64,000 bases of DNA from Desulfofundulus salinus. GTDB taxonomy: Bacteria; Bacillota; Desulfotomaculia; Desulfotomaculales; Desulfovirgulaceae. Position 1 is the first letter of the stretch. Each line of letters opens with the position of its first letter. The notes under the pieces are model-generated. The model did not search any database. It had not been told where the DNA came from and worked only from the letters and a program-made list of their open reading frames with translations. The position numbers were made by a program, and so were the translations under genes. The stretch is from NCBI RefSeq assembly GCF_003627965.1, contig NZ_RBWE01000001.1:186001-250000 (forward strand), given 5' to 3'. This document shows positions 15,313 through 51,810 of this stretch, piece by piece.

Positions 15313-15561
15313 ATGAAAAATCCCGGACTCGCGGCGGTGTTGAGTTTTTTGGTTTGCGGTCTCGGCCAGATCTACAACGGCCAGATCGGCAAAGGGATCG
15401 TGCTTTTCGTAGCGGCAGGCGTTTCCGGCCTGCTCTGCGCGGTGGTAATTGGGTTTATTCTGCTGCCGGCCGTCTGGATATACGGCATTGTAGATGCCTA
15501 CAGGACGGCTGAGAAAATCAACAGGGGGGCTGAAGGAAGTGCAGAAGACTATAGCAGGTAA
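15313..15561 (+). CDS. TM2-domain-like small membrane protein
   Basis: This 82-residue protein resembles TM2-type proteins: MKNPGLAAVLSFLVCGLGQ, the YNGQIGKGI segment, two membrane helices and a polar WIYGIVDAYRTAEKIN end. Such proteins accompany many secretion and membrane-stress systems; function is unknown. ATG 15313 is taken because AAGGAG is at proper spacing; an upstream ATG at 15274 lacks one. It is the first gene of a tight unidirectional run through 23.7 kb and overlaps the next gene, so it is probably co-transcribed with the transfer genes. Confidence 0.7.
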   Translation: MKNPGLAAVLSFLVCGLGQIYNGQIGKGIVLFVAAGVSGLLCAVVIGFILLPAVWIYGIVDAYRTAEKINRGAEGSAEDYSR

Positions 15562-15931
15562 GATTGGAGTTGCCTTTTTGCTAATTACCGCGCTGTTGAC
15601 TTTTGCGGCTCCCGCCCTGGCAGAAGATCAGCAGGCTCCGGCGTCAGGTTCCGGCGGGATCCAGCCGGTGAGCCCGGACCAGTTTGCACAGAAGGTTAAC
15701 ACCATGATTGACGGTGCCTACAAAGCGGCTGGTCCCGTTACGGACGCTGTAGCGAAGATCATGCTCGCCGTGGCGGGTGTGGCCGCGCTGCTGGTGCTCT
15801 TCAGCGGCATGAAGCTCTTCCAGAAGGTTGTCGGCGCGGTCCTGTCCATAGGTTTCGGCATACTGCTGTTCTACGGGGCGCCGTATGTCGTCGGGCTGGT
15901 CAAGGGCCTGGCCCAGTATGTGACGAGGTAA
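15539..15931 (+). CDS. Small secreted/two-helix protein, possible VirB2-like subunit
   Basis: From GTG 15539 the product (130 aa) starts with a signal-like segment (KIGVAFLLITALLTFAAPALAE). A low-complexity stretch and two hydrophobic helices follow (IMLAVAGVAALLVLFSGMKL and VVGAVLSIGFGILLFYGAPY), the form of TrbC/VirB2 pilins. The next gene has the same plan, so the two may be paired pilin or channel subunits. The start is chosen because it puts the signal peptide at the N-terminus, 9 bases after GGGGGG; a longer frame from 15494 lies inside the previous gene. The family assignment rests on form and gene order, not on motifs. Confidence 0.6.
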   Translation: MQKTIAGKIGVAFLLITALLTFAAPALAEDQQAPASGSGGIQPVSPDQFAQKVNTMIDGAYKAAGPVTDAVAKIMLAVAGVAALLVLFSGMKLFQKVVGAVLSIGFGILLFYGAPYVVGLVKGLAQYVTR

Positions 15932-15947
15932 AAGGAGGATGGTGGAA

Positions 15948-16301
15948 ATGTTTAGTAAAAGGCTTAAGAAAGCTGCAGGCGCGCTTGGTACGCTGGCTGC
16001 AGGCATATTCGGGGCGGCTGCTCCTGCTTTTGCTGAACTACAGCCGCAGGACCCCAGTCAGCTGACAGACAAAATCATCGACCTTGTAAACAGGGTCGGC
16101 ATGCCCGTCGGTGGCGCGCTGCTGTTTCTCTCCGTATGCGTGGGGGCCATCGAACTGATCCTGTCCCGCGGCAGGCCCGAGAAACGGGCAGAGACTATGA
16201 GCGGGCTGCTGTACGTCGCCATCGGGGGGATCATTCTCGGGGGTTCGCTGTTCTTCGCCGGGGTGTTCTTCGGCATCGGCAAGAGCGTCTTCGGCGGTTA
16301 A
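15948..16301 (+). CDS. VirB2/TrbC-like pilin subunit
   Basis: This 117-residue protein has a signal peptide (ALGTLAAGIFGAAAPAFAEL, cleavage after AFA) and two membrane helices separated by a short basic loop (LILSRGRPEKRAETMSGLLY). This is the standard VirB2/TrbC arrangement, and it lies immediately before the PrgI/VirB3-like gene as in other Gram-positive type IV systems. ATG 15948 is nine bases after AGGAGG; ATG 15939 is too close to it. It probably forms the transfer pilus or a membrane pore subunit in the cell envelope. Identification is by architecture and context. Confidence 0.7.
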   Translation: MFSKRLKKAAGALGTLAAGIFGAAAPAFAELQPQDPSQLTDKIIDLVNRVGMPVGGALLFLSVCVGAIELILSRGRPEKRAETMSGLLYVAIGGIILGGSLFFAGVFFGIGKSVFGG

Positions 16302-16316
16302 GGGGAGATTTGGTTC

Positions 16317-16619
16317 ATGCGTCTTTTCCCTGTCCCCATGGACTTAACCGAAGAAGAAAAGATTCTCGGCGGTGTGCTTTCCCTGCGGCAGGTGGTCTAC
16401 CTTCTGGGGGGCGGCGTTGCCGCCGTCCTCGCCCTGGCCTTTCTGAGAGCGTTACACGTACCGTGGGCGCTCGCCTTTCCGGCGGGCGTTTTGTGGTTTG
16501 TTGCGGGAGTCTTCCTGAGTTTCGGATCGCTGGCCGGTATAGGTGCGGACGAATACCTGAGCAAATTGCTTTTGTTTCGGTTCCGGCGCCGCCGGTATGA
16601 CTGGGGGGATGAGTTATAG
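16317..16619 (+). CDS. PrgI/VirB3-like conjugation membrane protein
   Basis: The 100-residue product fits the PrgI family (VirB3 equivalent in Gram-positive conjugation): an N-terminal VPMDLTEEEKILGGVLSLRQ, two close membrane helices, and a C-terminal basic region (LLLFRFRRRRYDW). PrgI proteins sit in the membrane next to VirB4, and the VirB4 gene follows two genes later. ATG 16317 has GGGGAG upstream. The next gene is preceded in-frame by an unassigned membrane segment just after this stop. Confidence 0.8.
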   Translation: MRLFPVPMDLTEEEKILGGVLSLRQVVYLLGGGVAAVLALAFLRALHVPWALAFPAGVLWFVAGVFLSFGSLAGIGADEYLSKLLLFRFRRRRYDWGDEL

Positions 16620-16741
16620 TTATAGGACTGATCTTCTTCATCCTTTCGATAGCTGTCGCAGCTTCGCTACCCTTTCTCCTGCGCTGGGCCGACAGGCGCG
16701 CGGAACGCGGCAGGTGGCAGAAAAGCGAACGGGAAGAGGTT

Positions 16742-17425
16742 GTGCGGGAAGGAAGGACCGGTCGTAAGAAGGCCGGCCCCTCCCTCCGCGACCTCTGGGA
16801 GATAAAGGACGTCAGGGATGGGGTGGTGTACCTGACGAGGAACCGCTACCGCATAATACTGCGCCTGACGCCGGTGAACTTCGACCTGCTTTCCGAAGGA
16901 GAGCAGCACGTGATCGAGAACGCCTTGATGGCCGTATGCCAGGGGTTAGATTTTCCCGTACAATTTCTATGCACGGCTGAAACGGTGGACACCCGGGCGG
17001 CGATAGCGGAACTTTACAGCCATGCCGCCGGGGAAACGTCCGCCGTACGGCAAAACTACGCAGAGGTGCTCTTATCCTACCTGGACACCCTCATGTCGCA
17101 GCGGTCGGTGCTGGTCAGGCGTTCATACGCAGTTGTCGGCTGCGACGGGCAGCCCTATGAAAAGGCCCGCGGGATACTGGAACACCGCGCCGCTGCACTG
17201 GCGGGCGCCCTGTCTCGGGCGAAAGTCGCGGCGGTAGTACTGTCCAGTGATGAGATCGTAGACCTGCTGCACCACCTGCTCAACAGGAACAAGGTCGTGC
17301 GGCCGTCCGACCTGGTGGGAGCAGGGGCATTGGACCTGTGCGTGAGCGGAAAGGGGGTCATTACAGGTGTTCAGACGGAAAAAGCAAAAGCAAACCTTGC
17401 GTCAGAGGGAGTACTCGCTGGATGA
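16742..17425 (+). CDS. VirB4-associated conjugation protein (TrsD-like position)
   Basis: This 227-residue protein precedes VirB4 and overlaps it by 59 bases. It has a mixed alpha/beta domain (LRDLWEIKDVRDGVVYLTRN, LRLTPVNFDLLSEGEQ) like the N-terminal domain of VirB4/TraC proteins, and may be the split-off N-terminal part or a separate TrsD-like partner. GTG 16742 is the first normal start, but the frame is open upstream to a stop at 16610 and encodes a membrane helix (IGLIFFILSIAVAASLPFLL) followed by a basic stretch. A non-standard start, for instance CTG 16628, would give a membrane-anchored protein 38 residues longer. Confidence 0.65.
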   Translation: MREGRTGRKKAGPSLRDLWEIKDVRDGVVYLTRNRYRIILRLTPVNFDLLSEGEQHVIENALMAVCQGLDFPVQFLCTAETVDTRAAIAELYSHAAGETSAVRQNYAEVLLSYLDTLMSQRSVLVRRSYAVVGCDGQPYEKARGILEHRAAALAGALSRAKVAAVVLSSDEIVDLLHHLLNRNKVVRPSDLVGAGALDLCVSGKGVITGVQTEKAKANLASEGVLAG

Positions 17426-19250
17426 CGGCATTCCGGCGGTGCAGGATCTTTTTATCCCGGACGGGCTCGAAGAGGAGAAGGATTACCTCTATCTTGGCCC
17501 GTCCAGGTACTGCCGGATATTTGCGATATCGAAATGGCCGCGGGACGTATACGTGGGGTGGCTGGACGAAATATTCTCGGTAGGAAACGTCGACCTGGCG
17601 GTACACGTGAGGCCCGTGCCCGACAGAAAAGTGGTGAACGACCTCACCGGAAAGGTGGTGTCGGCGCAGTCGCAGTGGATCGTGGAGAAGAACCGGGGGA
17701 GCATTATGCGTCTTCCCGAGCTGGAAAATATCATCAGGGACCTTGAAACCATCAGGGAGGCCATACAGTGCAACCGTGACCGGATGTTCAACGTTACGGT
17801 ACTGATCGCTGTGCACGGCACCAATGAGGAAGACCTGAACGCGCGGTGCGACCGCGTCGAAGACATACTGGCCCGCCGGGCAACGGAGGTGCGTGCGCTC
17901 ACCTTCAGGCAGGTGGAAGCGCTGAAGAGCATCCTGCCCGCGGGAAACCTGTGCGTACACGGCAGGGGCACCTTCAGGAACCTAACCCTGGGCGGCACGG
18001 CTACCGTACTGCCGGTATCAAGCGCTGTGCTCTCCCACCCGACAGGTGTGTTTCTGGGGTTCACAACCGCGAACAGTCCGGTGTTCTTCGACCCCTTCAT
18101 CGGTCCGCCGTGGTTGCCCAACCAGCATATAACTGTTTTTGGTTACCCGGGTAGTGGAAAAAGCGTTACGTTGAAGGTTCTCTGCGGCAGGATTTCTCTG
18201 GTAGGTGTAAGAGTGATAATCTTCGACCTGGAGGGTGAATACAGGGAGGCGTTGAAGAACCTTTACGACGGCGAAATAATACCTGTAGTAGCCGGCGTCC
18301 CGGCGGGTATGAACCCGCTGGAGATGGAGGTGGAGCGTGACCCGGAGACAAAAAAGGAATACATCAACATAAACGACAAGGTTGCGGACGTGCGGGCTCT
18401 CGTGGCTACGATTGTGCGCGGTTTCGCCAACCGCCCCCTTGAGCCCGAGGAAATAGCCGTGCTGGAGGAAGCGGTGCGCGAGTTGTACGCCGAAAGGGGC
18501 ATAACATCCGACCCGGCGAGTCTTTACGAGCCGGGCGGCAAAAAACTGCCGGAGGGCGGTTTCGCGATCGGGGGCGTAAGAAAACGGATGCCCATGCTGT
18601 CCGACCTGCACGCGAAGCTGCAGGAAAAACCCGCTACGGAAAAACTGTGCTTGATCCTAAAGCCCTTCCTCAGGGGAAATTCCCTGGGCATGTTCGACTG
18701 CGAGACGTCAAAGGACCTCACCGCGCCGGTCGTGGTATTCGACCTCTCGCGGATCAGGGACGACTTCACCAAACTCTACGCCATGTTTGTGGTGCTGACC
18801 TGGGCCTGGCACAAGTTTGCGCTGCGGCACACCGGGAAGAAGATGGTGGTGATCGACGAAGCGTGGATGTTCGTCAAATGGCCCGATTCGGCGCAGTTCC
18901 TGGAAACCCTGGCCCGCCGGGGCAGAAAACACGACACCGGGCTGGTGATAGCCAGCCAGTACGTCGAAGAATTTCTGGCACGTGAAGAAGGCCGGACGGT
19001 AATAAACGGCTGCGCTACAAACATACTGCTGGGTCAGAATCCGACCGTGGTGGACCAGGTGGTGGAGGTATTCAAACTGCCCAAGGGCATGGGTGAAAGA
19101 CTCCAGACCTTTACTGACGGCAGGTGTATAATAAAGACAGGCGGTAAAAATCTGCAGGAAATGGGCGGCAACATAGCGGAAATGCAGGTATCTGTACTGC
19201 CTTACGAGATGCCGTTTGTCCGGACGGGAGGAAAGGGGGAACCGCAATGA
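17367..19250 (+). CDS. virB4: VirB4-type conjugation ATPase
   Basis: This 627-residue ATPase powers the type IV secretion channel from the cytoplasmic face. The Walker A motif FGYPGSGKSVTLK is near residue 258 and Walker B KMVVIDEAWMF near 492, where DEAW is typical of VirB4/TrbE/HerA relatives. A downstream GLVIASQYVEEFLAREEGR segment carries the sensor Gln. The N-terminal 230 residues match the VirB4 N-domain. GTG 17367 lies inside the preceding gene and its stop overlaps the next ATG by four bases, so the run is translationally coupled. It looks complete and is the clearest marker that 15-24 kb is a conjugation system. Confidence 0.92.
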   Translation: MFRRKKQKQTLRQREYSLDDGIPAVQDLFIPDGLEEEKDYLYLGPSRYCRIFAISKWPRDVYVGWLDEIFSVGNVDLAVHVRPVPDRKVVNDLTGKVVSAQSQWIVEKNRGSIMRLPELENIIRDLETIREAIQCNRDRMFNVTVLIAVHGTNEEDLNARCDRVEDILARRATEVRALTFRQVEALKSILPAGNLCVHGRGTFRNLTLGGTATVLPVSSAVLSHPTGVFLGFTTANSPVFFDPFIGPPWLPNQHITVFGYPGSGKSVTLKVLCGRISLVGVRVIIFDLEGEYREALKNLYDGEIIPVVAGVPAGMNPLEMEVERDPETKKEYININDKVADVRALVATIVRGFANRPLEPEEIAVLEEAVRELYAERGITSDPASLYEPGGKKLPEGGFAIGGVRKRMPMLSDLHAKLQEKPATEKLCLILKPFLRGNSLGMFDCETSKDLTAPVVVFDLSRIRDDFTKLYAMFVVLTWAWHKFALRHTGKKMVVIDEAWMFVKWPDSAQFLETLARRGRKHDTGLVIASQYVEEFLAREEGRTVINGCATNILLGQNPTVVDQVVEVFKLPKGMGERLQTFTDGRCIIKTGGKNLQEMGGNIAEMQVSVLPYEMPFVRTGGKGEPQ

Positions 19251-19819
19251 GCTACGATTACAACTACAGGGACAGCTTCTGGGAAGCCGATGCCGCAGCC
19301 CGGGGTCTGGTTTACGACCCGTACACCGGGAGGTACGTGGAACCCTGGGAAGCTTACGGCAGTGCGGAGGAAGCCGTGGCGGGCGGCGGCGCGCTGGCCA
19401 TCCTGGCGGCCCTGGAACTGGTCTGGGGACTCGTAGTCGGAATCATCCTCCTGGTTTCGCACATCGTCCTGAAGATATTCGAGTGGAACGATGCCCGGCT
19501 GGAGTACAAGCGCCTGCACGAGAAAAAAGAGCCTCTGGGGTACCAGTACGACGCCTCACTCAAAAAGTGGGGGGACGGCGTGCGCGAGAGGTACGTCCTG
19601 ACCGACGAAGGCCTGGTGAGGGCGGATGAATACCGGGAGCCGGAGAAAAGCGGCCCGCGGCGGATTGTGTTCGCGAAGCGGTGCAGGATGGTGATGACCC
19701 CGCGCGGGCTGGTGCCGGCGGAAACCGCGGAGCGGGAAGGGATCAGCGGGTCGATTAGGAAAGCGGGCGGAGTCGTTCAGACTCCGGTGAGGGGAAAATG
19801 GGAGTTCGGCGGTATCTAG
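19247..19819 (+). CDS. Hypothetical conjugation-operon membrane protein
   Basis: The 190-residue protein has a Tyr-rich N-terminus (MSYDYNYRDSFWEADAAARG, VYDPYTGRYVEPWEAYG), one or two hydrophobic helices (ALAILAALELVWGLVVGIIL), and a basic cytoplasmic tail. The short motif YDxxTGRY resembles repeats seen in some surface or adaptor proteins but is not diagnostic. It overlaps VirB4 by four bases and the VirB6-like gene by 22, so it is made with them and probably belongs to the transfer complex. Not VirB8: no matching fold pattern was seen. The function is unknown. Confidence 0.62.
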   Translation: MSYDYNYRDSFWEADAAARGLVYDPYTGRYVEPWEAYGSAEEAVAGGGALAILAALELVWGLVVGIILLVSHIVLKIFEWNDARLEYKRLHEKKEPLGYQYDASLKKWGDGVRERYVLTDEGLVRADEYREPEKSGPRRIVFAKRCRMVMTPRGLVPAETAEREGISGSIRKAGGVVQTPVRGKWEFGGI

Positions 19820-21909
19820 CGGTCGTCTGCTGTTTTCTACTCCTGGCCTTCCTGTTTCTGTCGCCTCCTGATGCCCGGGCCGAGTCCGAATATCATGCCG
19901 TTGAAGTAAAGAACGTGCGCTTCGCCACCGGTGACGGTAAGGTACACGTCACCTGGGAAGCGCACGTTGTGAAGGGCGGTCCCGCACTGGGACCCGACCG
20001 CATTACCATAAAGCGCAGCGAGCACTACGGTTCCTTTGTCGGCGACCCGGTGGCCGTCCTGGAAATGCCGCAGTCCGAAGGCTGGCTCTCCATGTCCTGG
20101 ACGGACGGGAACGTTGAAGTGGGTAAAACCTACCACTACAAGGTCAACAGCAAGGATTACTGGAATGCTGTTACCGTCAGAAAGGATTCCGTTCCGCCGT
20201 CCCTGGGCGGGCAGGAAACGTCGCCCTGGTCGCCCGGCGGGGACATCAAGGATGAAGGCGGTTTATTTGAGAGAGCCGTTGCCTCCGTATTCGACGGCCT
20301 GTACAAGGTTTTCACGAAGCTGACCGGCAAGTTCGGCTTCAAGCCGGTAGGAGAACTCGTCCTGCAGGTGGATGACAACGCTTACGACCTCGTAGCCCCG
20401 GCTCCGTTTTCACCGGAACAGTGGCGCACATTGGACGGCCTCTACGGGGGCATGGCGAGCGTCGGCCTGGCGCTCTACCTGATTGCTGTGCTCGTGGCGG
20501 CGGGCAGGTTCATAGGCGCCGGGATCTCGAAAAACCCGGAGGCCAGGGCGGAAGCATCATCACAGCTCTGGCGGATGTTTTTCGCGCTCATCATCATCGC
20601 CGGCGCGCCTGTTGTCGTTCGTACGCTCTACGTTCTGAACAACGCCCTGGTGGAGGCCATCAGAACGGCCGCCGGGGACGGCGGGCGTTTGTCTGAAATT
20701 CTGTCCAACGACTGGCTCGCGAAGTTGCAGACCGGGTCGGTGCTCGGCACCGCCATTGTCAAGGTGGTCTTCGCCTGGGCCGGGTTCTGGATAAACATCA
20801 TCTTCTGGGTGCGGGACTGGGTCGTTTCTGTCCTGTATGTCTTCACGCCGGTAATGGCGCTGCTCTGGGTCATGAACCGGAATGTCACCGCGGCGAGCGT
20901 CTGGCTGGGTGAGCTGCTCTCAAACACATTTCTCCAATCGGCATACGCTCTAGCGGCCGTTGTCATTGTGGTTTTCATAGCGAACGGCAACATAGGCTGG
21001 CCGCAAAAAGTCCTGGGCGCGTACATGATAATCACGCTGGGAGGCTTGTTACGCAACGGCCTGCAGGGACTGTGGACCAGGTGGGCCGGTATTGAAGAAG
21101 AAGGCGTTGCCGCGAAAGCCCTCGGCATGTTCGGGCTGGGCGGCGTGGCCGGCCTGGGGCGGCTGGTCGTCGGCAGCATTGCGGCCCCGTCCGTGGCTGG
21201 GGCCCCCGGCGGCACGGGTGGCATCGGTGCCTCAGGCGGCTCTACTATAAATTTACAGGGTACTGCGGCACCTTCTGGAACCGCAGGTTCAACGGGTACA
21301 TCTCCGGGTGCGGGTGCCGCCACCGGGGGGCCCCCGGGCTATACGGTGTCGCCGGGCGGATTACTCGTCCCCGCGTCGCAGAGCGCCGCGCCCGCAGGTA
21401 CTGCGTCAGGTTCCGGAGTACAGGCCGCTGCGGGTCCACAGCTGGCTACAGCAGGCGGCGGGCTCCCCACCTATCAGAACCCCCTGATTAGGTCGATGGA
21501 CTACGGCAGGGTGACGAGAAACGTGGTCCAGGGCGTGGTCTCCACCGTGGGAGCGGCGGGTGCGGCCGTCATGCCCGGCGGCGACCGCGTGCTGCGTGCC
21601 GTGGCGAAAGGCGCGGGTATAGCCGCGCAGGTTGCCGCCACTGCAGGCGGCCTGATGCACCACTCCTACCAGCGTGCGAGACAGGGCGGCGGCGGGGCAG
21701 TGGAGACCGTGCGCAGGCTGCCGGGGGCGGCGCTCCAGACCCTCAAGGATGGTACCAACGTACAGCAGGGCGGCGTCTACGGGGCCGCAAAGGCGACCTT
21801 CAAGGCAGCTACCGCCGCTACGATAGACGCCGTGTCGCCCAATTCCACGCCGGTGGTGGCGAAGAGACTGACCGGGTCAAGCCTTGACGGCTACAGGTTC
21901 AAGTCCTGA
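19798..21909 (+). CDS. VirB6/TrbL-like polytopic membrane protein with fibronectin-like head
   Basis: This 703-residue protein has a signal peptide (cleaved near PPDARA), then a fibronectin-type-III-like domain (VRFATGDGKVHVTWEAHVVK, then WTDGNVEVGKTYHYKVNS) at about 35-120. Five or six membrane helices follow between 215 and 430. A Gly/Ala/Ser/Pro-rich tail ends in the cytoplasm or cell wall. The helix block matches VirB6/TrbL, the channel core of type IV systems. The extracellular head is unusual and may bind the recipient or wall. ATG 19798 overlaps the previous gene by 22 bases. A terminator follows, although the wall-hydrolase gene continues in the same direction. Confidence 0.78.
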   Translation: MGVRRYLAVVCCFLLLAFLFLSPPDARAESEYHAVEVKNVRFATGDGKVHVTWEAHVVKGGPALGPDRITIKRSEHYGSFVGDPVAVLEMPQSEGWLSMSWTDGNVEVGKTYHYKVNSKDYWNAVTVRKDSVPPSLGGQETSPWSPGGDIKDEGGLFERAVASVFDGLYKVFTKLTGKFGFKPVGELVLQVDDNAYDLVAPAPFSPEQWRTLDGLYGGMASVGLALYLIAVLVAAGRFIGAGISKNPEARAEASSQLWRMFFALIIIAGAPVVVRTLYVLNNALVEAIRTAAGDGGRLSEILSNDWLAKLQTGSVLGTAIVKVVFAWAGFWINIIFWVRDWVVSVLYVFTPVMALLWVMNRNVTAASVWLGELLSNTFLQSAYALAAVVIVVFIANGNIGWPQKVLGAYMIITLGGLLRNGLQGLWTRWAGIEEEGVAAKALGMFGLGGVAGLGRLVVGSIAAPSVAGAPGGTGGIGASGGSTINLQGTAAPSGTAGSTGTSPGAGAATGGPPGYTVSPGGLLVPASQSAAPAGTASGSGVQAAAGPQLATAGGGLPTYQNPLIRSMDYGRVTRNVVQGVVSTVGAAGAAVMPGGDRVLRAVAKGAGIAAQVAATAGGLMHHSYQRARQGGGGAVETVRRLPGAALQTLKDGTNVQQGGVYGAAKATFKAATAATIDAVSPNSTPVVAKRLTGSSLDGYRFKS

Positions 21910-21989: not shown

Positions 21990-23744
21990 CTGGATTACCT
22001 GAAGAAGGCTGCCGGGAGGGCCGTGAAGAGGGCCGCCCGGGCCGGGGTGAGGAAACTCCTGCTCCTGCTCCTGCCCTACCTGGTGCCGTTTATTCCCTTT
22101 CTGGTGGTTCTCTTCCTGGTGGCGGTGCTGGTTGCCGCGACGTATTCGGCCATGGCCCCCGGCAGTTACCTGACGGGAGTTGATCCCTCCCCGGAAGATA
22201 AGGAAATCCAGCAGAAATACGAGCAATTGTGCAATAAATACAACGTCGCGGACACCTGGCTGGTCAACCCGGGGGAACCCTCCAGGCAGGGCGGCCCCGA
22301 TTACGAGTCCTCCCCGGATCACCCGTATTACCCGAACCGGGGCAGAGGGAAAAACATCGGGGCCATGGTGGACAGGTACCGCCAGGACCTCAAGCTGGCG
22401 CTGACCTGGGGGCAGGTGCACGGGGCGTGCCTGTTCCGGAATTACGTCACGGGGGAGCGGGAAATAACGGACGGGCAGCGGGAAAAGACGGCGAAGGATC
22501 TTCACCCTTACTTCTACTATAAGGAATCCGAGGTGACGGTCTGCAGCAAGGACGGGTGCGACACCTACACTGTCTACCTGCTGGTGGAAGCGTACACCAT
22601 CCAGGGCCACTACCAGTACCACTACGAGTGGGTTACGGAGACCTACGGCGAGGGAGAAAACGCCTACACCATCACCTACGAGCGGTTAAAAGATGTGCAG
22701 CAGATCCTCCCGGACAAATGGCAGCGCCTCAAGGACTGGATGAAGCAGGAGTACAATCTGGAAAACGACGCCGGCGAAGTGGAGCTGGCCCGCACGTGGC
22801 TCTGGGAAGCCACCCGGGGGTTTGACGAGCAGACGGAGTGGCTCAACTGGCTTGTGAACAACGTCAGCTATGCCTCTATTGCCTCTTCGGCTATGATCCC
22901 CCCGGAGCTGGTACCTTTCTTCAAGGAAGCGGAAGAACGGTTCGGTATCCCCTGGTGGTTCCTGGCGGCGATGGCCTTCAAGGAATCGTCCTTCAACCCT
23001 GGGGCGGAAAACCTGGACACCCACTGCTACGGGCTGATGCAGGTCTCCCCGTCGAACTGGGAACATTACGCCCCCCTGCTGGGGTTCGACCCGGTGATGG
23101 ACAGGGACAACCCCCGGGCGCAGGTGATGGTGGGGGCTTACCTGTTGAAAAACTACCTGGGAAGCGTGGACTGGGAGGGCGACTGGAAGGAGCAGACCCT
23201 GCCGGGGTTGGTCAGGTACGGCGGTTTTATCGAGGTACCGCCCGGCAAACCCTATGGCTCTGTTAAAGAATGGTGCCGGGCGGAGTACGCTTCGATTATC
23301 TGGGAGCTGGCAGAAAGTTTCCGGGACGTGCCGGGCACCTGGCCGGTGCCGGGTTACAGTACGATATCGTCTTACTTCGGCTGGCGCATTCGTCCATTTA
23401 CAGGTGAGAAGCAATTCCATAAAGGCATAGACATACCGGCACCTGAAGGGACCCCGGTGGTGTCGGTTTCCGGCGGGGTGGTGACCTTTGTCGGGTGGGA
23501 GAACCCGAACGACCCGGGTCAGGGGTACGGCCTCTACATGACCGTCCGTGATGGACAGCACCTGTACCTGTACGCACACCTGAGCCGCACGGATGTGGTA
23601 AAAGGCCAGACCGTCCAGCCGGGCCAGCAGGTGGGCGCGGTGGGCAATACGGGTATCTCCACCGGACCGCATCTGCACTTCGGAGTACAGGATCTGAGCG
23701 GTGGCAATTGGATAGACCCGCTGCTGGTGGTACAGCCGCAGTAG
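21990..23744 (+). CDS. VirB1-like wall hydrolase: lytic transglycosylase plus M23 peptidase
   Basis: This bifunctional enzyme (584 aa from CTG 21990, 573 from GTG 22023) opens peptidoglycan for the transfer apparatus. After a basic N-terminus and one helix comes an unassigned region to about 290. Next is a goose-type/SLT transglycosylase domain with the catalytic Glu in AMAFKESSFNP and GLMQVSPSNW. A C-terminal M23 peptidase domain carries HKGIDIPAP and HLHFGVQ as zinc ligands. CTG 21990 is considered because GGGGGAGG lies seven bases upstream and no ATG/GTG/TTG occurs there; GTG 22023 has a weaker site. Two wall activities in one chain are typical of Gram-positive conjugation hydrolases. Confidence 0.88.
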   Translation: MDYLKKAAGRAVKRAARAGVRKLLLLLLPYLVPFIPFLVVLFLVAVLVAATYSAMAPGSYLTGVDPSPEDKEIQQKYEQLCNKYNVADTWLVNPGEPSRQGGPDYESSPDHPYYPNRGRGKNIGAMVDRYRQDLKLALTWGQVHGACLFRNYVTGEREITDGQREKTAKDLHPYFYYKESEVTVCSKDGCDTYTVYLLVEAYTIQGHYQYHYEWVTETYGEGENAYTITYERLKDVQQILPDKWQRLKDWMKQEYNLENDAGEVELARTWLWEATRGFDEQTEWLNWLVNNVSYASIASSAMIPPELVPFFKEAEERFGIPWWFLAAMAFKESSFNPGAENLDTHCYGLMQVSPSNWEHYAPLLGFDPVMDRDNPRAQVMVGAYLLKNYLGSVDWEGDWKEQTLPGLVRYGGFIEVPPGKPYGSVKEWCRAEYASIIWELAESFRDVPGTWPVPGYSTISSYFGWRIRPFTGEKQFHKGIDIPAPEGTPVVSVSGGVVTFVGWENPNDPGQGYGLYMTVRDGQHLYLYAHLSRTDVVKGQTVQPGQQVGAVGNTGISTGPHLHFGVQDLSGGNWIDPLLVVQPQ

Positions 23745-28714: not shown

Positions 28715-28715
28715 A

Positions 28716-30046: not shown

Positions 30047-30053
<7 letters not shown>

Positions 30054-45096: not shown

Positions 45097-45782
45097 GCAA
45101 ACTGTTGAGTGACGAACGGGGGAGCATACTGCCCATAGTCGCCATGGTGGTGGCCGTGGCTTTCACCCTGGCGGCCATCGCCCTTGACTTCGCCCGGTAC
45201 AAGGTGGCCTCGGAGAAACTTCAGACGGCGGACGACGCGGCCGCCCTGGCCGCGGCAATGACCGCCGACCGTTACGTTACCCTGGAGATAGACATGGGCG
45301 AGTACACCACCTGCTGCGGGGATGAAGAATGCGATCCCTGCTGTGAACCCTGCGGCACGACTGTAGTCTCGGGCCTGGAAAGAGACCTCATCGACAACGG
45401 CGGATGGGCAAAATACTGCTGCGACTGCGGCGGGTGCTCCTACACCATACTGGATCGCTGGGTGGAGTTCAGGGGATCCAATGCGATAACGGCTGCCGAA
45501 GCCATGTTCGAGCTCAACCGCCCGCCGGAAATGGACGCTGCTGAGGGGGGTGACGCGAGGATAACGGGAATAACCGTCTACGACGACAGGAACAGCCCTT
45601 ACTACCCGTCCGTCGTCGTCAGGACTTTCGGCCGGGTGAAGACCCTGGCGCTGAACTTCCTGGACAGGTTCGCGCCGGGTAATTTCGATTACATTTCCGC
45701 AAACAGGTGCGGCCAGGGAGGGACGTTTTATTACGACCTCAACGGGAGGTGGCACCGGGCGGCGGAAGATGCGTGCAATTAA
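45093..45782 (+). CDS. Cysteine-rich TadG-like protein
   Basis: This 229-residue TadG-type protein has a prepilin-like N-terminus (SDERGSILPIVAMVVAVAFT, Ile instead of Glu near +5) and a helix, then an outer domain starting with the conserved DDAAALAAAMTADRY. Twelve Cys residues are present. Six lie within TTCCGDEECDPCCEPCG and four within YCCDCGGC, which is exceptional for this family. They could form a compact disulfide or metal knot. ATG 45093 overlaps the preceding stop. The next gene encodes a membrane protein with a CPAC thioredoxin-like site, which could form or repair the disulfides. Confidence 0.78.
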   Translation: MSKLLSDERGSILPIVAMVVAVAFTLAAIALDFARYKVASEKLQTADDAAALAAAMTADRYVTLEIDMGEYTTCCGDEECDPCCEPCGTTVVSGLERDLIDNGGWAKYCCDCGGCSYTILDRWVEFRGSNAITAAEAMFELNRPPEMDAAEGGDARITGITVYDDRNSPYYPSVVVRTFGRVKTLALNFLDRFAPGNFDYISANRCGQGGTFYYDLNGRWHRAAEDACN

Positions 45783-45798
45783 TCAACCGGAAGAAAGG

Positions 45799-46527
45799 AT
45801 GGTGCCCTTGCAAAAGTTAATCAGCGGGAGCTTTTTCGTGGCGGCCTCAATATTTCTCGCCATCAAAGGCTCCCCGGACGTGGTGACTGCCGGAGCCGTC
45901 CTGGGGAGCGCTTTGTGCGCCGGGTTCGTCTCATCGAAACAGCACCTGAAAGCAGTAATACTCGGAGCTGCCCTGGTGGCGGTTTCCCTGGTCCTGCAAT
46001 CAATTGCGGGCCGGTGTTCCACGTGCATTCAGGCGGACATGCTCCTGGCTGCCGGCGTGGTGACCTCATCCATGGCAGCGAGGGAATACAGGCTCCGGGT
46101 AGTGAGCGGGGTGCTGGTTCCGGCCTTGATCGCCGCCGTGATGTTCTGGGGTCCGGTTCCGGGGCAGGGCGGCCCGGGGCAAGAAATGTTCGGCAGGTAC
46201 ATTGCGGCCGCACAGGACGGGAAAACCATCAAACTCGATACGGCCCTTAAACCCGTCCTTCTATTTTCCCCGGAGTGTCCCGCCTGCCGGGAAGCCTTAA
46301 AGCAATTAATCAACAGGGATCCGGCAGGGAAGGGATGGCAACCTGTCCTCGCGCAGGGTGACCCGGTTGAAACGGAACGGACACTCAAAGGCATGGGTTA
46401 TACCGGGGAAATCTCCCGCTTCCGGTGGAGAGGTCCGGTTCCCATCATGATCTGGACGAAAGACGGTAAGACCCGGAGCACCCACAACGTGCGGGAAATG
46501 CTGGAGGTGGTGCCCGTTGAGCCTTGA
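45799..46527 (+). CDS. Membrane protein with thioredoxin-like CPAC domain
   Basis: This 242-residue protein has about four helices in its first 140 residues. Two Cys (GRCSTCIQAD, CxxC) lie between helices, and a soluble domain follows with VLLFSPECPACREALKQLIN, the CxxC site of a thioredoxin fold, and a cis-Pro candidate in GPVPIMIWTK. The plan resembles VKOR- or DsbD/TlpA-like redox proteins. Cys pairs in both the membrane and soluble parts suggest electron relay. The gene follows the Cys-rich TadG-like gene. ATG 45799 was chosen (GAAAGG upstream); GTG 45802 or TTG 45808 is possible, and ATG 45769 lies inside the previous gene. Confidence 0.72.
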   Translation: MVPLQKLISGSFFVAASIFLAIKGSPDVVTAGAVLGSALCAGFVSSKQHLKAVILGAALVAVSLVLQSIAGRCSTCIQADMLLAAGVVTSSMAAREYRLRVVSGVLVPALIAAVMFWGPVPGQGGPGQEMFGRYIAAAQDGKTIKLDTALKPVLLFSPECPACREALKQLINRDPAGKGWQPVLAQGDPVETERTLKGMGYTGEISRFRWRGPVPIMIWTKDGKTRSTHNVREMLEVVPVEP

Positions 46528-46612
46528 GGTGTGCAGCCTGATCAACTTCTCGTCGGCCCTGGCCGCATCCGAGTAGCCGAACAAAACTAAAAAAAGGGAG
46601 GGGAATGTTGAA

Positions 46613-47329
46613 TTGTCTAAACTGCCGAAGCTCAGTCTCAAAAAGAAAAATACTTCCTTCTGGGTGGCCGTGCTGTTGAGCCTGGCCGCCGCCTTCTCGC
46701 TCTACGCTACCTTTCACCTGATTTACCGTCCCGTCAAGGTGGTCATGGTGACCAAAGAAGTCCGGCCGGGGGAACAGATCCAGAAAGATGCACTCAAGGA
46801 GGGCACGGTATTAGCCGGCGACCTCAACCCCAAAGCCGTCAGGTCACTTGATGCGGCTGTAGGAAAATATGCCGCCTCGCCGTTATACCCCGGGGAACAG
46901 CTCATCGCAGACCGGCTGGTGCAGGACCCAGATAAGGCGACGGGGGCTTTCAGCTACCTCCAGCCCGACGAGACGTACGTCGGCTTCAATTCGGAAGAAG
47001 CCCGCTGGCCCAAGGGTATAAAGGAAGGGGATACCGTCACGGCGGTGGCCGTTATGGACACCGAAGCCCGCATTGTCGGCAAGAAGCTCAAGGTGATCGG
47101 TACCGACAAACCCGTTCCCGTACTGGGGCAGGTGCAGGTGATGAAGCAGGCCGTGCCGGACAACGCCTCCACCATCACCATCGCCGTGCCGCGCAACATG
47201 GTGGCTGATCTGTTGTATGCGAAGGTCAAATCAAAGGCTTTTTATCTCCTGCCGGAACACCCCAAACTGGTATTCCAGGGAGAGGGAGAAATTGTTACGG
47301 CTGAAAGCGGGCCGCAAAAACAACAGTAG
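46613..47329 (+). CDS. CpaB/RcpC-like SAF-domain protein (locus 2)
   Basis: The 238-residue product has a Lys-rich start, one helix (WVAVLLSLAAAFSLYATFHL), a SAF domain (VKVVMVTKEVRPGEQIQKDA with YPGEQLIADRLV) and a trailing domain (IKEGDTVTAVAVMDTEARIV). It is a paralogue of the CpaB at 27179 but clearly diverged. TTG 46613 follows GGGAGGGG at good spacing. It would help the second pilus cross the wall. The gene order CpaB-CpaF-TadB-TadC repeats that of locus 1, without CpaE. Confidence 0.78.
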   Translation: MSKLPKLSLKKKNTSFWVAVLLSLAAAFSLYATFHLIYRPVKVVMVTKEVRPGEQIQKDALKEGTVLAGDLNPKAVRSLDAAVGKYAASPLYPGEQLIADRLVQDPDKATGAFSYLQPDETYVGFNSEEARWPKGIKEGDTVTAVAVMDTEARIVGKKLKVIGTDKPVPVLGQVQVMKQAVPDNASTITIAVPRNMVADLLYAKVKSKAFYLLPEHPKLVFQGEGEIVTAESGPQKQQ

Positions 47330-47341
47330 GGGGGATGCTGG

Positions 47342-48583
47342 TTGGAATTCCGCGACATTCTAAAGCAGGTCAGGTACCGCGTGGTAAAAAAATACGGCGA
47401 CCTGTTCCTGCAGGACTGCGAGGACCGCACAAGACAGGAGGGGGTCATCAGGAAGGAAATCAGAGACCTAGTGGGACGGGAGGACCTTGCTCTTGAAAAG
47501 GAAGTCATCTCCTACCTTATCGGCCTCGGGCCGGTGGAACGGTTCCTGGAAGAGCCGGACGTCAACGAGATAATGATCAACAAAAGGAATGAGATCTGGG
47601 TCGAACGTGCCGGCAAGAAAATGGAGCGGGTTGATGTGGAGTTCGAAAGCGACGAGGAACTGCTGGCGTTTGTCCACCGTATAGTGCACCGGTGCGGCCG
47701 CCGGGTGAACTTCAACAAACCTTTGGTAGACGCCCGACTCCCCGACGGGTCGCGGGTGAACGCAGTGGTCCCGCCTTCGGCGCCCAACCCGGTGGTCACC
47801 ATCAGGAGGTTCGTGGTCAACTATTTCTCCGAGGAAGACCTGATAGCCCAGGGATACATGAACCGGGAAATGGCCGGTTTCTTCCGGTACGCCGTCAGGG
47901 GCAAGCTGAACATCATCGTGTGCGGGGCCACCGGTTCCGGTAAAACGACTTTTCTCCGGCTCCTGGCCAGCTACATTCCAGAGAATGAAAGGCTCATTGT
48001 TATTGAAGACACCCGGGAACTGGCCCTGGACCACCCCCACGTGGTGTCCCTCGAAGCGTGCGAAAAGGCCAGCATATACGAATTAATGGTAAACTCCTTA
48101 CGCATGAGGCCCAACCGGATCATCCTGGGAGAGGTGCGGGGGGCCGAGGCTTTCGAGCTCCTCCAGGCCATGGGCACGGGCCACGAGGGAAGCCTCACAT
48201 CGCTTCATACCAACTTCGGCAAAATGGAAGCCATACACCGGTTGGTCAGGGCTATGATCCGGGTGGGCGGCATGACCGCCGAAGACCTGATCGCCCAGAT
48301 TGCCGAGACGGTGGACATAACCGTGTTCATAAAAAAGTTTCCCGACGGCAAACGAAGGATTACCCACGTGACTGAGGTGATGAGCGAAGGAGGCCGGCCC
48401 GTATTCAACGACATCTACCGGTACGACTACGCAGGCGCAAATCACGTGGCCGTGGGGAGGCTTAGCGACGCAACCCTTGAGCGTATGCGGGAAAACCTCC
48501 TGGGTGAGCCCCTTCCCGCCATCGCTCCCTTCGGGAAAAAGCCGGAAGGGGGTAAAACATGCTTGGCGTTGCATGCGCTTTGA
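47342..48583 (+). CDS. CpaF/TadA pilus assembly ATPase (locus 2)
   Basis: This 413-residue ATPase carries LGPVERFLEEPDVNEIMINK in the N-domain, Walker A CGATGSGKTTFLRLLASY near 196, the Asp box IVIEDTRELALDHPH and Walker B RIILGEVRGAEAFELLQAM near 260, with GHEGSLTSLHTN. It is diverged from the paralogue at 28716, so the two loci may build distinct fibres. TTG 47342 follows GGGGGGATG. It overlaps TadB2 by 25 bases. Confidence 0.92.
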   Translation: MEFRDILKQVRYRVVKKYGDLFLQDCEDRTRQEGVIRKEIRDLVGREDLALEKEVISYLIGLGPVERFLEEPDVNEIMINKRNEIWVERAGKKMERVDVEFESDEELLAFVHRIVHRCGRRVNFNKPLVDARLPDGSRVNAVVPPSAPNPVVTIRRFVVNYFSEEDLIAQGYMNREMAGFFRYAVRGKLNIIVCGATGSGKTTFLRLLASYIPENERLIVIEDTRELALDHPHVVSLEACEKASIYELMVNSLRMRPNRIILGEVRGAEAFELLQAMGTGHEGSLTSLHTNFGKMEAIHRLVRAMIRVGGMTAEDLIAQIAETVDITVFIKKFPDGKRRITHVTEVMSEGGRPVFNDIYRYDYAGANHVAVGRLSDATLERMRENLLGEPLPAIAPFGKKPEGGKTCLALHAL

Positions 48584-49452
48584 TCGCCGCGGCAGCTCTG
48601 GCCTGGCACATTGCGCTTAAGAAAGAAAACCCGGTTGTCTCCGGAGTGAGGGGCCTGCTGGCCCGGGCGGAAGCCGAAAGCGAGGCCATGTTCCTTGCCC
48701 CGGGAGGGAAAAAGGATACCGGGTGGAAGCTGCACCGGCTGGGCGTAAGGATTGGCTACCGCACTTTTCTTTTCCTGGTTGGTGCGGTGGGAGTCTTCCT
48801 GGCGGCGGTGTCCCTCATCGTGCTCAAAAACCCGTTTCTGGCGGTTATATCCTTCGTCCTGACCCTGGCCTTTGCCCACGGCCAGGTTGACGTGTTATAC
48901 CGGAAACGCAAAGCGGTAATAGACGAACAGGCCGAGGTTGCCCTGCAAATGCTGGCAGGGCTCTACCAGGTTACCGGAGACCTGGTGGACTCGCTCAGGA
49001 AGGTGAGCCAGGGCACCGCCTCCCCCCTGAAGGAAGAACTCCAGCGGGTGGTAACGGAGTACAACGCCGGGAAGGACCTGGGAGCCGCCCTGAGAGACTT
49101 CGCGGAGCGAGCCGACAACCGGGACATAGAACTGTTCGTCCAGGGGGTGTCCCTGTCGGAGCACTACGGCACTGACACGTCGCAGGTGATCAAACACATC
49201 GCCGAAACCATCCGCAACCGCCTGCTCCTGCGGGACGAACTGAAGGCGGAGACAAGGGGCCAGAGCATGACCATCAACCTCTTTTTGTTCCTGGTGCCTT
49301 TAGCGGCGGCGGCAATCTGGGTGTTTTCCCCCACCTCCAGGGAAGTGCTCACGGAAAGCCTGGCCGGGAAAGTCGTTCTATCAGCAGTAGCGGTCGTCGA
49401 ATATGTAGCGTGGTACCTTACCCGCAGAAAAGGGGTGGTGGAAGAACTATGA
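48559..49452 (+). CDS. TadB-like platform protein (locus 2)
   Basis: The 297-residue product is a GspF/TadB-type platform protein: an N-terminal helix, two helices near 75-115 (FLFLVGAVGVFLAAVSLIVL), a cytoplasmic domain (EVALQMLAGLYQVTGDLVDS, LRKVSQGTASPLKEELQRVV) and C-terminal helices. ATG 48559 is within CpaF2 and its stop overlaps the next gene by 4 bases. Confidence 0.85.
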   Translation: MLGVACALIAAAALAWHIALKKENPVVSGVRGLLARAEAESEAMFLAPGGKKDTGWKLHRLGVRIGYRTFLFLVGAVGVFLAAVSLIVLKNPFLAVISFVLTLAFAHGQVDVLYRKRKAVIDEQAEVALQMLAGLYQVTGDLVDSLRKVSQGTASPLKEELQRVVTEYNAGKDLGAALRDFAERADNRDIELFVQGVSLSEHYGTDTSQVIKHIAETIRNRLLLRDELKAETRGQSMTINLFLFLVPLAAAAIWVFSPTSREVLTESLAGKVVLSAVAVVEYVAWYLTRRKGVVEEL

Positions 49453-50237
49453 CGGCCCTTTCGTGCGTGCTGGTGTTTCTGGCACTGCTGGCGTGGTTGT
49501 TGAGGCGGTTTGAGGATTTTCCCGGTCCGCTGGAAGTCCTGAAAGGGTTCGGCTCCCTGGCGGCGTCCCCTCAAAAACTCAAAGAGCTCGGTGTCAGGCT
49601 GGAGACCCTGAACATAAAGGTTTCGCCGGAACTGTTCACGGCGTTCCGGCTTGCGGGGGCGCTGGTCCTGACCGCCGCCGGTGGAGTGGCGATCTGGAAA
49701 TCCCCCTTTGCAGGTGTGGCACTTCTGTTTCTGGCCTTTCTGGCCTATAAATTTCCCGAATGGCAGCTCGCCAGACTGGAAAAAGCCCGGAAGGAAGAGA
49801 TCGGCCGGGAGTTTCCGCTCATGGTGGACATGGTCAGGATATACGCCCGGGCAGCGGACCTTTACCAGGCCCTCAAGATCGTGCCCTATGCTTTAAAGGG
49901 AGAGCTGGCCAAACAGATGCATATTTTGAGCGCGGAGCTTGAAATCGCCCCTATGGCCGAGGCGCTGGAAAACTTCGCCCACCGGTGCGGGCTCCGCCAG
50001 GTGCAGGACTTTGTCGGCGTGGTTCTCCAGGGGATACGGTCCGGTATGGACGTGGACGAAATATTGCAGCGTTACTCCAGCATGGCTTACGAACGCAGGG
50101 TGACGGAGATTAAAAGGAAAATCAAAGCGCAGCCGTTGATTCTTTCCGTTCTGCCCGGCCTTTTGATGTTCAGCCTGATCATACTCTGGGTCCTTCCCAT
50201 GTACTCAAATATCATCCAGAAGCTTAAGGCTTTCTGA
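49449..50237 (+). CDS. TadC-like platform protein (locus 2)
   Basis: This 262-residue protein is the partner GspF-type platform subunit, with helices near the N-terminus, at about 60-100 and at the C-terminus (LILSVLPGLLMFSLIILWVL), and the cytoplasmic EFPLMVDMVRIYARAADLYQ block. ATG 49449 overlaps the TadB2 stop as ATGA and is preferred over an upstream ATG at 49410. A strong terminator follows, so the pilin-like genes after it have their own control. Confidence 0.85.
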   Translation: MTALSCVLVFLALLAWLLRRFEDFPGPLEVLKGFGSLAASPQKLKELGVRLETLNIKVSPELFTAFRLAGALVLTAAGGVAIWKSPFAGVALLFLAFLAYKFPEWQLARLEKARKEEIGREFPLMVDMVRIYARAADLYQALKIVPYALKGELAKQMHILSAELEIAPMAEALENFAHRCGLRQVQDFVGVVLQGIRSGMDVDEILQRYSSMAYERRVTEIKRKIKAQPLILSVLPGLLMFSLIILWVLPMYSNIIQKLKAF

Positions 50238-50240
50238 GAA

Positions 50241-50269
50241 AACCCGCCGCGGCGGGTTCTTTTTTTTTG
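50241..50269 (+). terminator. Terminator after TadC2
   Basis: AACCCGCC/GGCGGGTT stem followed by CTTTTTTTTT. Confidence 0.8.
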
Positions 50270-50365
50270 GGGGTATTTCGCAAGGGAAGGAGGGTTGAGG
50301 ACGTTTTAAAACGCGGCCCCCGGATGATTTTTACTAAACTAAACACATTAGGGAGGCTATCGCAG

Positions 50366-50563
50366 ATGAAAAACTTCTTCAGACGCTTTTTATCCGACGA
50401 AAAGGGCAACGCTTTCATCGAAAACGGCCTGTGGATCATTGTGGTGGTCCTGTTGGTAGCCGGCGCCGGGTACGCCCTGGCCAACCAGGGTATCAAGACC
50501 AAGTTCGACCAGATCCAAACTCAGGTCACCAACACCCAGGTGCCGAATATAAGCGGGCAATAA
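50366..50563 (+). CDS. Flp-like pilin (locus 2)
   Basis: This 65-residue protein has a prepilin site in SDEKGNAFIENGLWIIVVVL (cleavage after Gly, Glu at +5, Asn where Flp has Tyr), one long helix and a polar tail (FDQIQTQVTNTQVPNISGQ). It is a probable major or minor pilin of locus 2. GGGAGG is nine bases before ATG 50366; an upstream ATG at 50267 was rejected. It is followed by a stem-loop and a second pilin-like gene. Confidence 0.82.
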   Translation: MKNFFRRFLSDEKGNAFIENGLWIIVVVLLVAGAGYALANQGIKTKFDQIQTQVTNTQVPNISGQ

Positions 50564-50581
50564 ACTGCAAAAAAGGGGGAA

Positions 50582-50605
50582 GGGACAGGGTTCATCCCCT
50601 GTCCC
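50582..50605 (+). other. Stem-loop between two pilin genes
   Basis: GGGACAGGG pairs with CCCTGTCCC around TTCATC, directly before ATG 50613. There is no T-run, so it may act as an mRNA stability or processing element that sets the ratio of the two pilins. Confidence 0.55.
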
Positions 50606-50612
50606 GATAGAT

Positions 50613-50792
50613 ATGTTTGAGTTACTGAAGCGCATGTGGCATGACCAGAAGGGGAACCACTTTCTCGAAGTCGCCCTGTATATAATCCTGTTCACCCTGG
50701 CCGTGGCACCTTTTGTTTCGGGCCTGGCGGGTGAAATCGGGGTGAAAATGCAGGAAATGAGGAATAAGATCGGGCAGGTGGGCGGCCCGTGA
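50613..50792 (+). CDS. Pilin-like small protein
   Basis: A 59-residue protein with the prepilin form MWHDQKGNHFLEVALYIILF: Gly before the cut and Glu at +5, followed by a hydrophobic helix and a short charged tail. It is too short for usual gene calling but fits the series of pseudopilins around it. ATG 50613 follows the stem-loop. Its TGA overlaps the GTG of the next gene. Probably a minor pilin. Confidence 0.68.
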   Translation: MFELLKRMWHDQKGNHFLEVALYIILFTLAVAPFVSGLAGEIGVKMQEMRNKIGQVGGP

Positions 50793-51271
50793 GTTTCCGG
50801 AAAGATTCCCGGGGTTCCGCCAGCGTCGAAGCCCTGTTCGTCATCGCCATCCTGCTGATGCTGTTCTTTTTTGTCGTAGAAATGGGATTTTTAATGTACG
50901 ACTGGGCGGTGATAAACCATGCCGCCAGCGCGGCGGCGGTGGAGGCGGCCATGAACGGCCGCTTCTCCGCCGACATCCGCCAGGCCATGGCGGAACACAT
51001 AAAGAAAATGACCACAGAAGGCAATACGATGGGCACCGACGCCTCCGGTACCTCGCTTCCGGGGAGTGTCAACCCGGGAACCATATACGTCTACGGCACG
51101 GATGCGAACATGAACGTCCAGCGGGGTGGGACGATTACCGTGGGAGTGGCATATCCCTTCCGGTTCAAAACGTTCCTTTTTGACGCCCTGGGCCGGTGGC
51201 TCACCGGGGAAGATCAGGTTGTCCTGAAAGTTAAAATGACGGCGGTCAGCGAGGTGTATTTTGAGCAATGA
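50789..51271 (+). CDS. TadE-like pseudopilin 3
   Basis: This 160-residue TadE-type protein has a prepilin site in KDSRGSASVEALFVIAILLM (Glu at +5), a helix, and an outer domain with FSADIRQAMAEHIKKMTTEG and VYFEQ at its end. GTG 50789 overlaps the previous stop, and its own stop overlaps the next ATG, showing tight coupling. It is likely a minor tip subunit of the second fibre. Confidence 0.78.
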   Translation: MSFRKDSRGSASVEALFVIAILLMLFFFVVEMGFLMYDWAVINHAASAAAVEAAMNGRFSADIRQAMAEHIKKMTTEGNTMGTDASGTSLPGSVNPGTIYVYGTDANMNVQRGGTITVGVAYPFRFKTFLFDALGRWLTGEDQVVLKVKMTAVSEVYFEQ

Positions 51272-51810
51272 TCTTATCGAGAGTTGGGCGGGACCAGAAA
51301 GGCTTCGCTTCCGTCACCTTTCTGGTCCTGCTGCTGGCCATTATGGCGATAGGTTCCCTTCTGGCGGACGTGGCCCGGCTGTACGCGATAAAAATAGCCT
51401 CCAGACACTATCTCAACCTCTCACTGCGAGCGGCAGCAGCCCAGCTGAACCAGGACGAGTTGAGGAACAACCGGATAGTCATAGACGAATCTGCGGCCCA
51501 GGACAAATTTTATGAGATATTGCGGGCAAACTTTAAACTTGACGGAAGCAACCATCCTTTACCAGGCTCTCTGGTAGACGGTCCTGTTGAGGTTTGTTAT
51601 TTCAGGGTGGTCAACAGCAATATGCTTCCCTTCCTCTACACCTTTGGCAGCTACTCCGAAACCATCACGCGCCCGGCAGTGACCGGGATAATCAAGTTTC
51701 CGGTGAGGGTCAGTTTTTGGGGGAGGATTGTTAGCTCAGGAGTACCGGAAAGTACGGACATGTATGTGCATTCGACCGTTGCGCCGGAACTGATTTCAAA
51801 ACTTTTATAA
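51268..51810 (+). CDS. TadG-like pseudopilin
   Basis: The 180-residue protein has an N-terminal prepilin-like segment (GRDQKGFASVTFLVLLLAIM; Thr instead of Glu at +5) and a helix, then a mixed outer domain (YLNLSLRAAAAQLNQDELRN) with a C-terminal VHSTVAPELISKLL. ATG 51268 overlaps the preceding stop as ATGA. It closes Tad locus 2. Without Glu at +5 it may be cut poorly or stay as an anchored accessory protein. Confidence 0.7.
   Translation: MILSRVGRDQKGFASVTFLVLLLAIMAIGSLLADVARLYAIKIASRHYLNLSLRAAAAQLNQDELRNNRIVIDESAAQDKFYEILRANFKLDGSNHPLPGSLVDGPVEVCYFRVVNSNMLPFLYTFGSYSETITRPAVTGIIKFPVRVSFWGRIVSSGVPESTDMYVHSTVAPELISKLL

Follow-up and report, generated by a model that had tools for sequence, protein, structure and literature searches.

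A monoderm type IV secretion system and two Tad pilus loci on one integrative element of Desulfofundulus salinus

Why should genes of a conjugation machine and two sets of Tad pilus genes stand side by side in the genome of Desulfofundulus salinus? The question is raised by a stretch of 64,000 nucleotides, called here the window, which is G000:C1:186001-250000 (contig NZ_RBWE01000001.1) within the 2.89-Mb genome. An initial annotation, made from the sequence alone, had placed conjugation machinery and two Tad loci on one island. The type IV secretion system (T4SS) and both Tad loci indeed lie within one integrative element, element A, and the island is borne out by a second, collinear copy in the same genome and by target sites that are free in relatives. 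Element A is larger than had been stated: it has about 85.5 kb (C1:190520-275991), begins at window position ~4520 and runs past the window end, with its right third outside. The reading preferred here, with a probability of about 0.55, is that A is an integrative conjugative-type element whose Tad pili help to hold mating pairs, the function of the pili being predicted from gene content.

The left end of element A (attL) is at window position 4520, inside a yvrJ-type gene, as seen when the flanks are compared and joined. The other half of this gene is at the right end of the element, C1:275991 (window coordinate ~89991, outside the window). A joined-flank search finds the flanks of A close together in five relatives (G001-G005), and the insertion is probably recent because it is missing from these five congeners. 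A further VirB4 (43% identical) and duplicates of the two CpaF genes (96% and 93% identical) are found ~0.77 Mb from element A, and element B, which has 88 kb (C1:955137/1042988) and is collinear with A in a DNA comparison, is inserted in a tepA-type ClpP-like gene. The names yvrJ and tepA are putative and come from our own reading of the translations. Joining the flanks of B restores an uninterrupted ClpP-like frame. According to the joined-flank search, this site is uninterrupted in G001, G004, G005 and G007, is split by ~94 kb in G002, and has its halves on separate contigs in G006 and G008. Since their target sites are free in related species, A and B are both read as mobile insertions. 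A large serine recombinase forms the right end of both elements, and the two enzymes are 48% identical. A RecA gene (G000:C1:963645-964736) lies inside the boundaries of B. The site of B in G002 (G002:C1 ~2404300-2499200) holds a related element with Tad, ParM, TopB, VirD4 and serine recombinase genes, and with transposase-like genes at the expected place of VirB4.

Tad genes at a fixed chromosome site of relatives, without the conjugation genes, had been named beforehand as the finding that would speak against a joint island. A fixed chromosomal locus is rejected for both Tad loci, which are on two collinear elements with free target sites in relatives; a separate CpaF at C1:783858 (51% identity), which has counterparts in G002-G005, looks like the one proper to the host.

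Elements A and B have in common the left tyrosine recombinase, the T4SS, both Tad loci, an HD-GYP protein, ParM, the topoisomerase TopB, ArdC-like and DUF3854 proteins, and a right tyrosine recombinase. VirB4 is 42% identical between them and most other T4SS proteins fall, like it, at 34-44%, while most Tad proteins are 89-96% identical; one VirB2-type pilin, with 81%, is the exception among the T4SS proteins. Because VirB4 has diverged this far and most Tad proteins have not, the T4SS and Tad modules are, as judged from these identities, exchanged separately, which favours an accessory pilus for mating pairs over a channel in which T4SS and Tad are fused. Cargo such as restriction systems and toxin-antitoxin genes varies freely between A and B, and the giant PKD surface protein of A is partly alike in B (51% over 329 aa and 29% over 606 aa).

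The T4SS genes of element A occupy window positions 15494-23744 on the plus strand and are confirmed by Pfam. The VirB2-, PrgI/VirB3-, VirB4-, VirB6- and wall-hydrolase-type genes that had been recognized from the sequence alone all hold up by Pfam or profile matches, apart from VirB6, which is assigned by position, sequence and homologues in related loci. Two VirB2-type pilin genes (15494..16301) come first, of which the one at 15939-16301 matches T4SS_pilin (PF18895) at 2.5e-7, above the cut-off, and the one at 15494 matches TrbC weakly. They are followed by a PrgI/VirB3-type protein (16317..16619; PF12666, 2e-11) and by VirB4 in two overlapping genes (16742..19250), which encode the N-terminal part (16742-17425) and the ATPase (17367-19250), with the Walker A motif GYPGSGKS and the Walker B motif VVIDEA. 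VirB4 matches the NCBIfam CD1110-family VirB4 model below the cut-off and, with the family profile, the VirB4 of PDB 4ag5 at 7e-51. A polytopic membrane protein is at the VirB6 position (19798..21909), and a protein with SLT transglycosylase and M23 peptidase domains, of the type that opens the cell wall, ends the series (22023..23744; PF01551, 8.5e-27; PF01464, 1.3e-12). Among the named relatives found, Desulfofundulus thermobenzoicus is the closest, with a VirB4 that is 78% identical, and it agrees with the earlier guess that the host is a thermophile or lives in sediment.

The Tad genes lie on the same strand as the T4SS genes, and the genes mostly overlap or abut; the one long break, of 1567 bp, separates the SLT-M23 gene from the Tad genes that follow it. 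Tad locus 1 (25312..31900, plus strand) encodes a CpaE-like receiver protein, CpaB, a CpaE/TadZ-type ATPase, CpaF (5e-50), TadB, TadC and an Flp pilin (31715-31900), as assigned from Pfam, sequences and gene spacing. An A24 prepilin peptidase (32114..32572, plus strand; PF01478, 7e-14), the sole one seen in the window, follows. Tad locus 2 (44256..51810, plus strand) encodes, by Pfam, two TadE proteins, TadG, CpaB, CpaF (4e-49), TadB, TadC, an Flp-like pilin, a further TadE and a TadG-like protein. The CpaF/TadA ATPase, the TadB and TadC platform, the Flp prepilin and the A24 peptidase that make up a Flp/Tad pilus are thus all present. The two CpaB-CpaF-TadB-TadC sets, their pseudopilins and the single peptidase stand by Pfam as they were annotated, and so does the lack of a secretin, as no scanned window protein has a family match to RcpA/CpaC. 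The secretin is the outer-membrane part of such systems and is not expected in a monoderm, so its absence is compatible with a monoderm Tad system.

Between the two loci there are stalk-domain (Cu_amine_oxidN1) proteins, a weak PQQ-repeat-like protein and two weakly DUF6338-like membrane proteins (33954..39230, plus strand; Pfam), and the giant PKD-domain surface protein of 1602 aa (39355..44163, plus strand; PKD_4, 6e-21). A small HD-GYP protein is encoded after locus 2 (52555..53256, plus strand; HD_5, 1e-20), and its HD and HHERxDGSGYP motifs are seen in an alignment. This protein is kept beside Tad in related elements and in two plasmids, a position that suggests control by cyclic-di-GMP. 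Pairs of CpaF-type Tad loci ~5 kb apart are also found in G008:C83 (L028) and G140:C7 (L109), two genomes in which no VirB4 of this type was found.

The joint presence of VirB4 and CpaF in other mobile elements, which had been proposed as a check of the island, recurs well outside this genome. Element C of the complete genome G002 has the order T4SS, CpaE-like gene, Tad, giant surface protein, Tad, HD-GYP and ParM, as in A, plus VirD4, and its Tad ATPases are ~29-35% identical to those of A. Tad genes are also downstream of the T4SS in G001, G004 and G005. The last T4SS gene and the CpaE-like gene of Tad are separated by 48 bp in G002 and G001, a spacing that would be compatible with one operon. 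Run against 398 genomes of the phylum, a VirB4 profile delimits a tight clade (E below 1e-150), from which 20 loci outside the genus were taken; seven end too early at a contig edge and were left out, and sequence was extended mainly for loci without Tad in the first stretch. CpaF with TadB and/or TadC lies downstream in 10 of the 13 loci with enough sequence, which come from several families. Against a background set generously at 4 CpaF per 2.9 Mb, with stretches of 40 kb, this count has P ~6e-11, a value that ignores the relatedness of the loci and is a guide only. Tad genes are near about 5 of 20 more distant VirB4 loci.

Among plasmids, 18 with VirB4 were taken, four for high similarity and 14 from rows spread down the ranking, and a CpaF-type ATPase is present in 13 of them, mostly 6-40 kb from VirB4. 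Of 117 VirB4-bearing plasmid records, 100 are typed as non-mobilizable, so that mobility typing probably overlooks this VirB4/Tad plasmid class.

The coupling protein VirD4, which had been reported as missing from the window, is indeed not there; its place is just outside, in assembly gaps of A and B. A whole-genome search finds no VirD4 anywhere in the G000 assembly, while relatives have it, and in G001 and G002 it sits on the same kind of element. In five relatives with a 68-93% identical TopB, VirD4 lies 10-14 kb downstream of TopB. At the homologous place A and B have assembly gaps of 100 N (C1:265425-265524 and C1:1040488-1040587, outside the window). In A, the left flank of the gap is 98.2% identical over 1455 bp to G005:C27, and this match breaks off within the reading frame of a VirD4 of 709 aa. 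Beyond the gap, the sequence picks up again close to where this G005 frame ends, and B has the same pattern. As read from these flanks, VirD4 is very probably present in both elements and hidden by the gaps, which accounts for the empty whole-genome search, and perhaps it remained unassembled since the two copies are alike there. A true absence of VirD4, with TopB in its place, was considered and rejected, given the position of VirD4 past TopB in the five relatives and the gap at the homologous spot. Of the parts expected of an integrative conjugative element, A has an integrase with an insertion site that is free in relatives, VirB4 with T4SS genes and, as read from the gap flanks, VirD4.

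The proposed mechanism would start with insertion by the large serine recombinase of an element that carries a monoderm T4SS (VirB2, PrgI, VirB4, VirB6-like, wall hydrolase and VirD4), ParM, two Tad loci and surface proteins. Tad pili would extend, attach to cells nearby and, provided that they retract like the CpaF-driven pili of Caulobacter, draw donor and recipient together. The wall hydrolase would open the cell wall locally, the Gram-positive T4SS would then pass DNA between the joined cells, and the HD-GYP protein of the element may tune pilus production. In Caulobacter, the cited part of one study describes CpaF as powering both extension and retraction (PMC11300603). Expression, attachment, retraction and DNA transfer are thus predicted steps, while the gene content, the insertion at two sites and the recurring linkage of T4SS and Tad are read directly from the genomes. 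That the pili hold mating pairs is, we infer, the best reading of these data. A wider proposal, which we hold only tentatively and with less than even confidence, is that a widespread class of conjugative elements in monoderms has in Tad pili an organelle dedicated to mating pairs, and that the pilus would come from a swappable Tad module and not from the T4SS itself.

Some observations weigh against mating-pair pili on a conjugative element. No experiment on these elements was found in the literature, and Tad could be cargo of benefit to the host. T4SS of the same clade have no nearby Tad in G186, G350 and G187 (the last covered over ~14 kb), and CpaF is not present on the plasmids from Vescimonas, Brevibacillus borstelensis, Gulosibacter, Lactobacillus and Halobacillus, five of the 18; because of these cases Tad is, by gene content, not needed for every such T4SS. 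No canonical relaxase was found either: PF03432 is absent from nine genomes and no relaxase is among the Pfam matches of the scanned element A proteins, the other MOB families being without a genome-wide search. Relaxase family PF13814 has nothing on the element and a weak match elsewhere in the genome. That the island should have no relaxase anywhere had been the second finding named beforehand against it, and these scans are compatible with both its presence and its absence. A non-canonical relaxase, for example of the tyrosine-recombinase type (MOBM), is possible, and TcpM of pCW3 is such an enzyme (PMC12857230). A TcpM-like role for the tyrosine recombinases of element A is possible but unsupported, as both keep the usual active-site residues (the left one by motifs, the right one by eye). 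Winged-helix-like proteins of 216 aa and 297 aa near TopB or VirD4 were considered as relatives of Replic_Relax and have no Pfam match.

The main rival, which we consider rather unlikely, is that the Tad loci are adhesion or colonisation genes that serve the host in biofilms or surface attachment and have no role in transfer. The separate exchange of the two modules would agree with this, as would the CpaF locus pairs of G008 and G140 and the fact that Tad has the highest transfer rates and plasmid location in its superfamily (PMC6668835). Against it, Tad keeps its position and orientation with respect to the T4SS in several families, and in some elements hardly any gap separates the two, an arrangement that is unusual for cargo; the cargo proper varies without such constraint between A and B. 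The Tad motor CpaF belongs to the VirB11-type ATPases and, built into the T4SS, might instead replace a missing VirB11 and pilus and move DNA or protein through or along a joint structure. No separate VirB11 gene is seen, and both CpaF proteins score strongly, below the cut-off, on the VirB11 and TrbB models; in PAPI-1, transfer depends on the type IV pilus whatever the conditions (PMC12857230). This hybrid machine is nevertheless improbable, as a 96%-identical CpaF is paired in A and B with VirB4 proteins of only ~42% identity, the Tad set is full, with its own pilins, platform proteins and peptidase, and related T4SS occur without Tad.

That A and B are decayed remnants that no longer transfer is a shade less probable again. 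Signs that could be taken as decay are the transposase genes of A with a broken copy of IS110, the failure to find a relaxase, the unassembled VirD4 and the transposase genes at the VirB4 place of the G002 element in the tepA-type gene. On the other side, the reading frames for the T4SS, Tad, TopB and the recombinases are open, the absence of VirD4 is an assembly gap and the insertion of A, missing from five congeners, is probably recent. Very improbable, and the least likely of all, is DNA uptake by the Tad pili as by the Flp-type competence pili of Micrococcus, with an element that spreads partly by transformation. Natural transformation that depends on Flp pili is known from the cited part of PMC4322843, but no competence genes of the ComEC type were noted among the scanned element proteins, and the T4SS, VirD4, ParM and recombinases point to conjugation.

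The remaining genes of element A in the window are at its two sides. At the left end, a D12 adenine methyltransferase and a PD-(D/E)XK nuclease (4684..5979, plus strand; Pfam 3e-69 and 1e-28) form a pair that is kept at the left end of several related elements, with 85-95% identity in G001, G004 and G002. The left tyrosine recombinase (5983..6834, plus strand), which is XerC/D-like, matches PF00589 at 5e-37 and the NCBIfam XerC/D model below the cut-off, has the active-site motifs and is also present in related elements. An IS110-type transposase in two overlapping frames (8719-9805, minus strand) adjoins a UPF0236 gene (6947-8377). The region 10000-14091 is A+T-rich (42-44% G+C), has no counterpart in element B and encodes unknown proteins with weak Panacea and PemK matches, possibly a toxin-antitoxin pair. 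On the right, a type ISP restriction-modification enzyme (56783..61534, plus strand; PF18135, 1e-109) is cargo outside the part collinear with B, and a ParM/StbA-type actin for segregation (62451..63428, plus strand) matches ALP_N at 1e-28 and MreB-like_C at 9e-34.

The general view of Gram-positive conjugation is that it does without conjugative pili and depends on surface adhesins. If the link between T4SS and Tad holds, the monoderm T4SS of many Bacillota would gain a pilus-based way to find and hold partners. A literature search, which covered few subscription journals, found no paper in which Tad loci are presented as belonging regularly to the conjugative elements of monoderms. With the MPF_FA / FATA class of monoderm T4SS, which is described as lacking VirB2 (PMC12102498), element A shares a CD1110-like VirB4, PrgI, a VirB6-like protein, a wall hydrolase and VirD4, but differs by its VirB2-type pilin genes and two Tad loci. 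Like Flp/Tad (type IVc) loci, it has CpaB, CpaE/TadZ, CpaF, TadB, TadC, Flp, TadE and the A24 peptidase; unlike them, it has no secretin seen, two loci with one peptidase and a place on a conjugative-type element.

The Sulfobacillus plasmids pL15 and pY0017 (NC_016040) and an integrated copy carry, in the cited part of their description, a T4SS, CpaF/TadB/TadC, StbA, a relaxase and TraG (PMC6803676). The plasmids of S. thermotolerans and the copy of strain Kr1 resemble A in CpaF-TadB-TadC, ParM/StbA, VirD4, an ArdC-like protein, VirB4, an SLT transglycosylase and a toprim protein, while pL15/pY0017 differ as plasmids with one Tad-type set in the examined part, a MOBP relaxase and a VirB4 that is 24% identical. 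The same part of that paper names the Tad genes a putative type II secretion system and does not report a two-locus arrangement. The Bacillota plasmids pVpro, pGspE55-1, pAACI01 and Brevibacillus halotolerans unnamed1 also have a VirB4 T4SS near SAF/CpaB, CpaF and TadB/C, with an HD protein beside Tad in pVpro and pAACI01, but they are free plasmids of variable gene order with VirB4 proteins 30-36% identical to that of A.

The pili of IncI R64 and of PAPI-1 aid conjugation (PMC12857230). PAPI-1 of Pseudomonas aeruginosa is, like A, an integrative island with VirB4 and VirD4, and its type IV pilus is required for transfer (PMC12857230), but it belongs to a diderm and the pilus is of type IVb, not Tad. 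R64 combines, like A, a conjugation machine and a separate pilus on one element, and its thin type IV pilus aids contact in liquid (PMC12857230), while R64 is Gram-negative and its type IV pilus is of another class than Tad. In element A and its relatives a T4SS and a type IV filament pilus stand on the same mobile element, and A may be said, by analogy, to work like R64 without being counted as a member of the R64 type.

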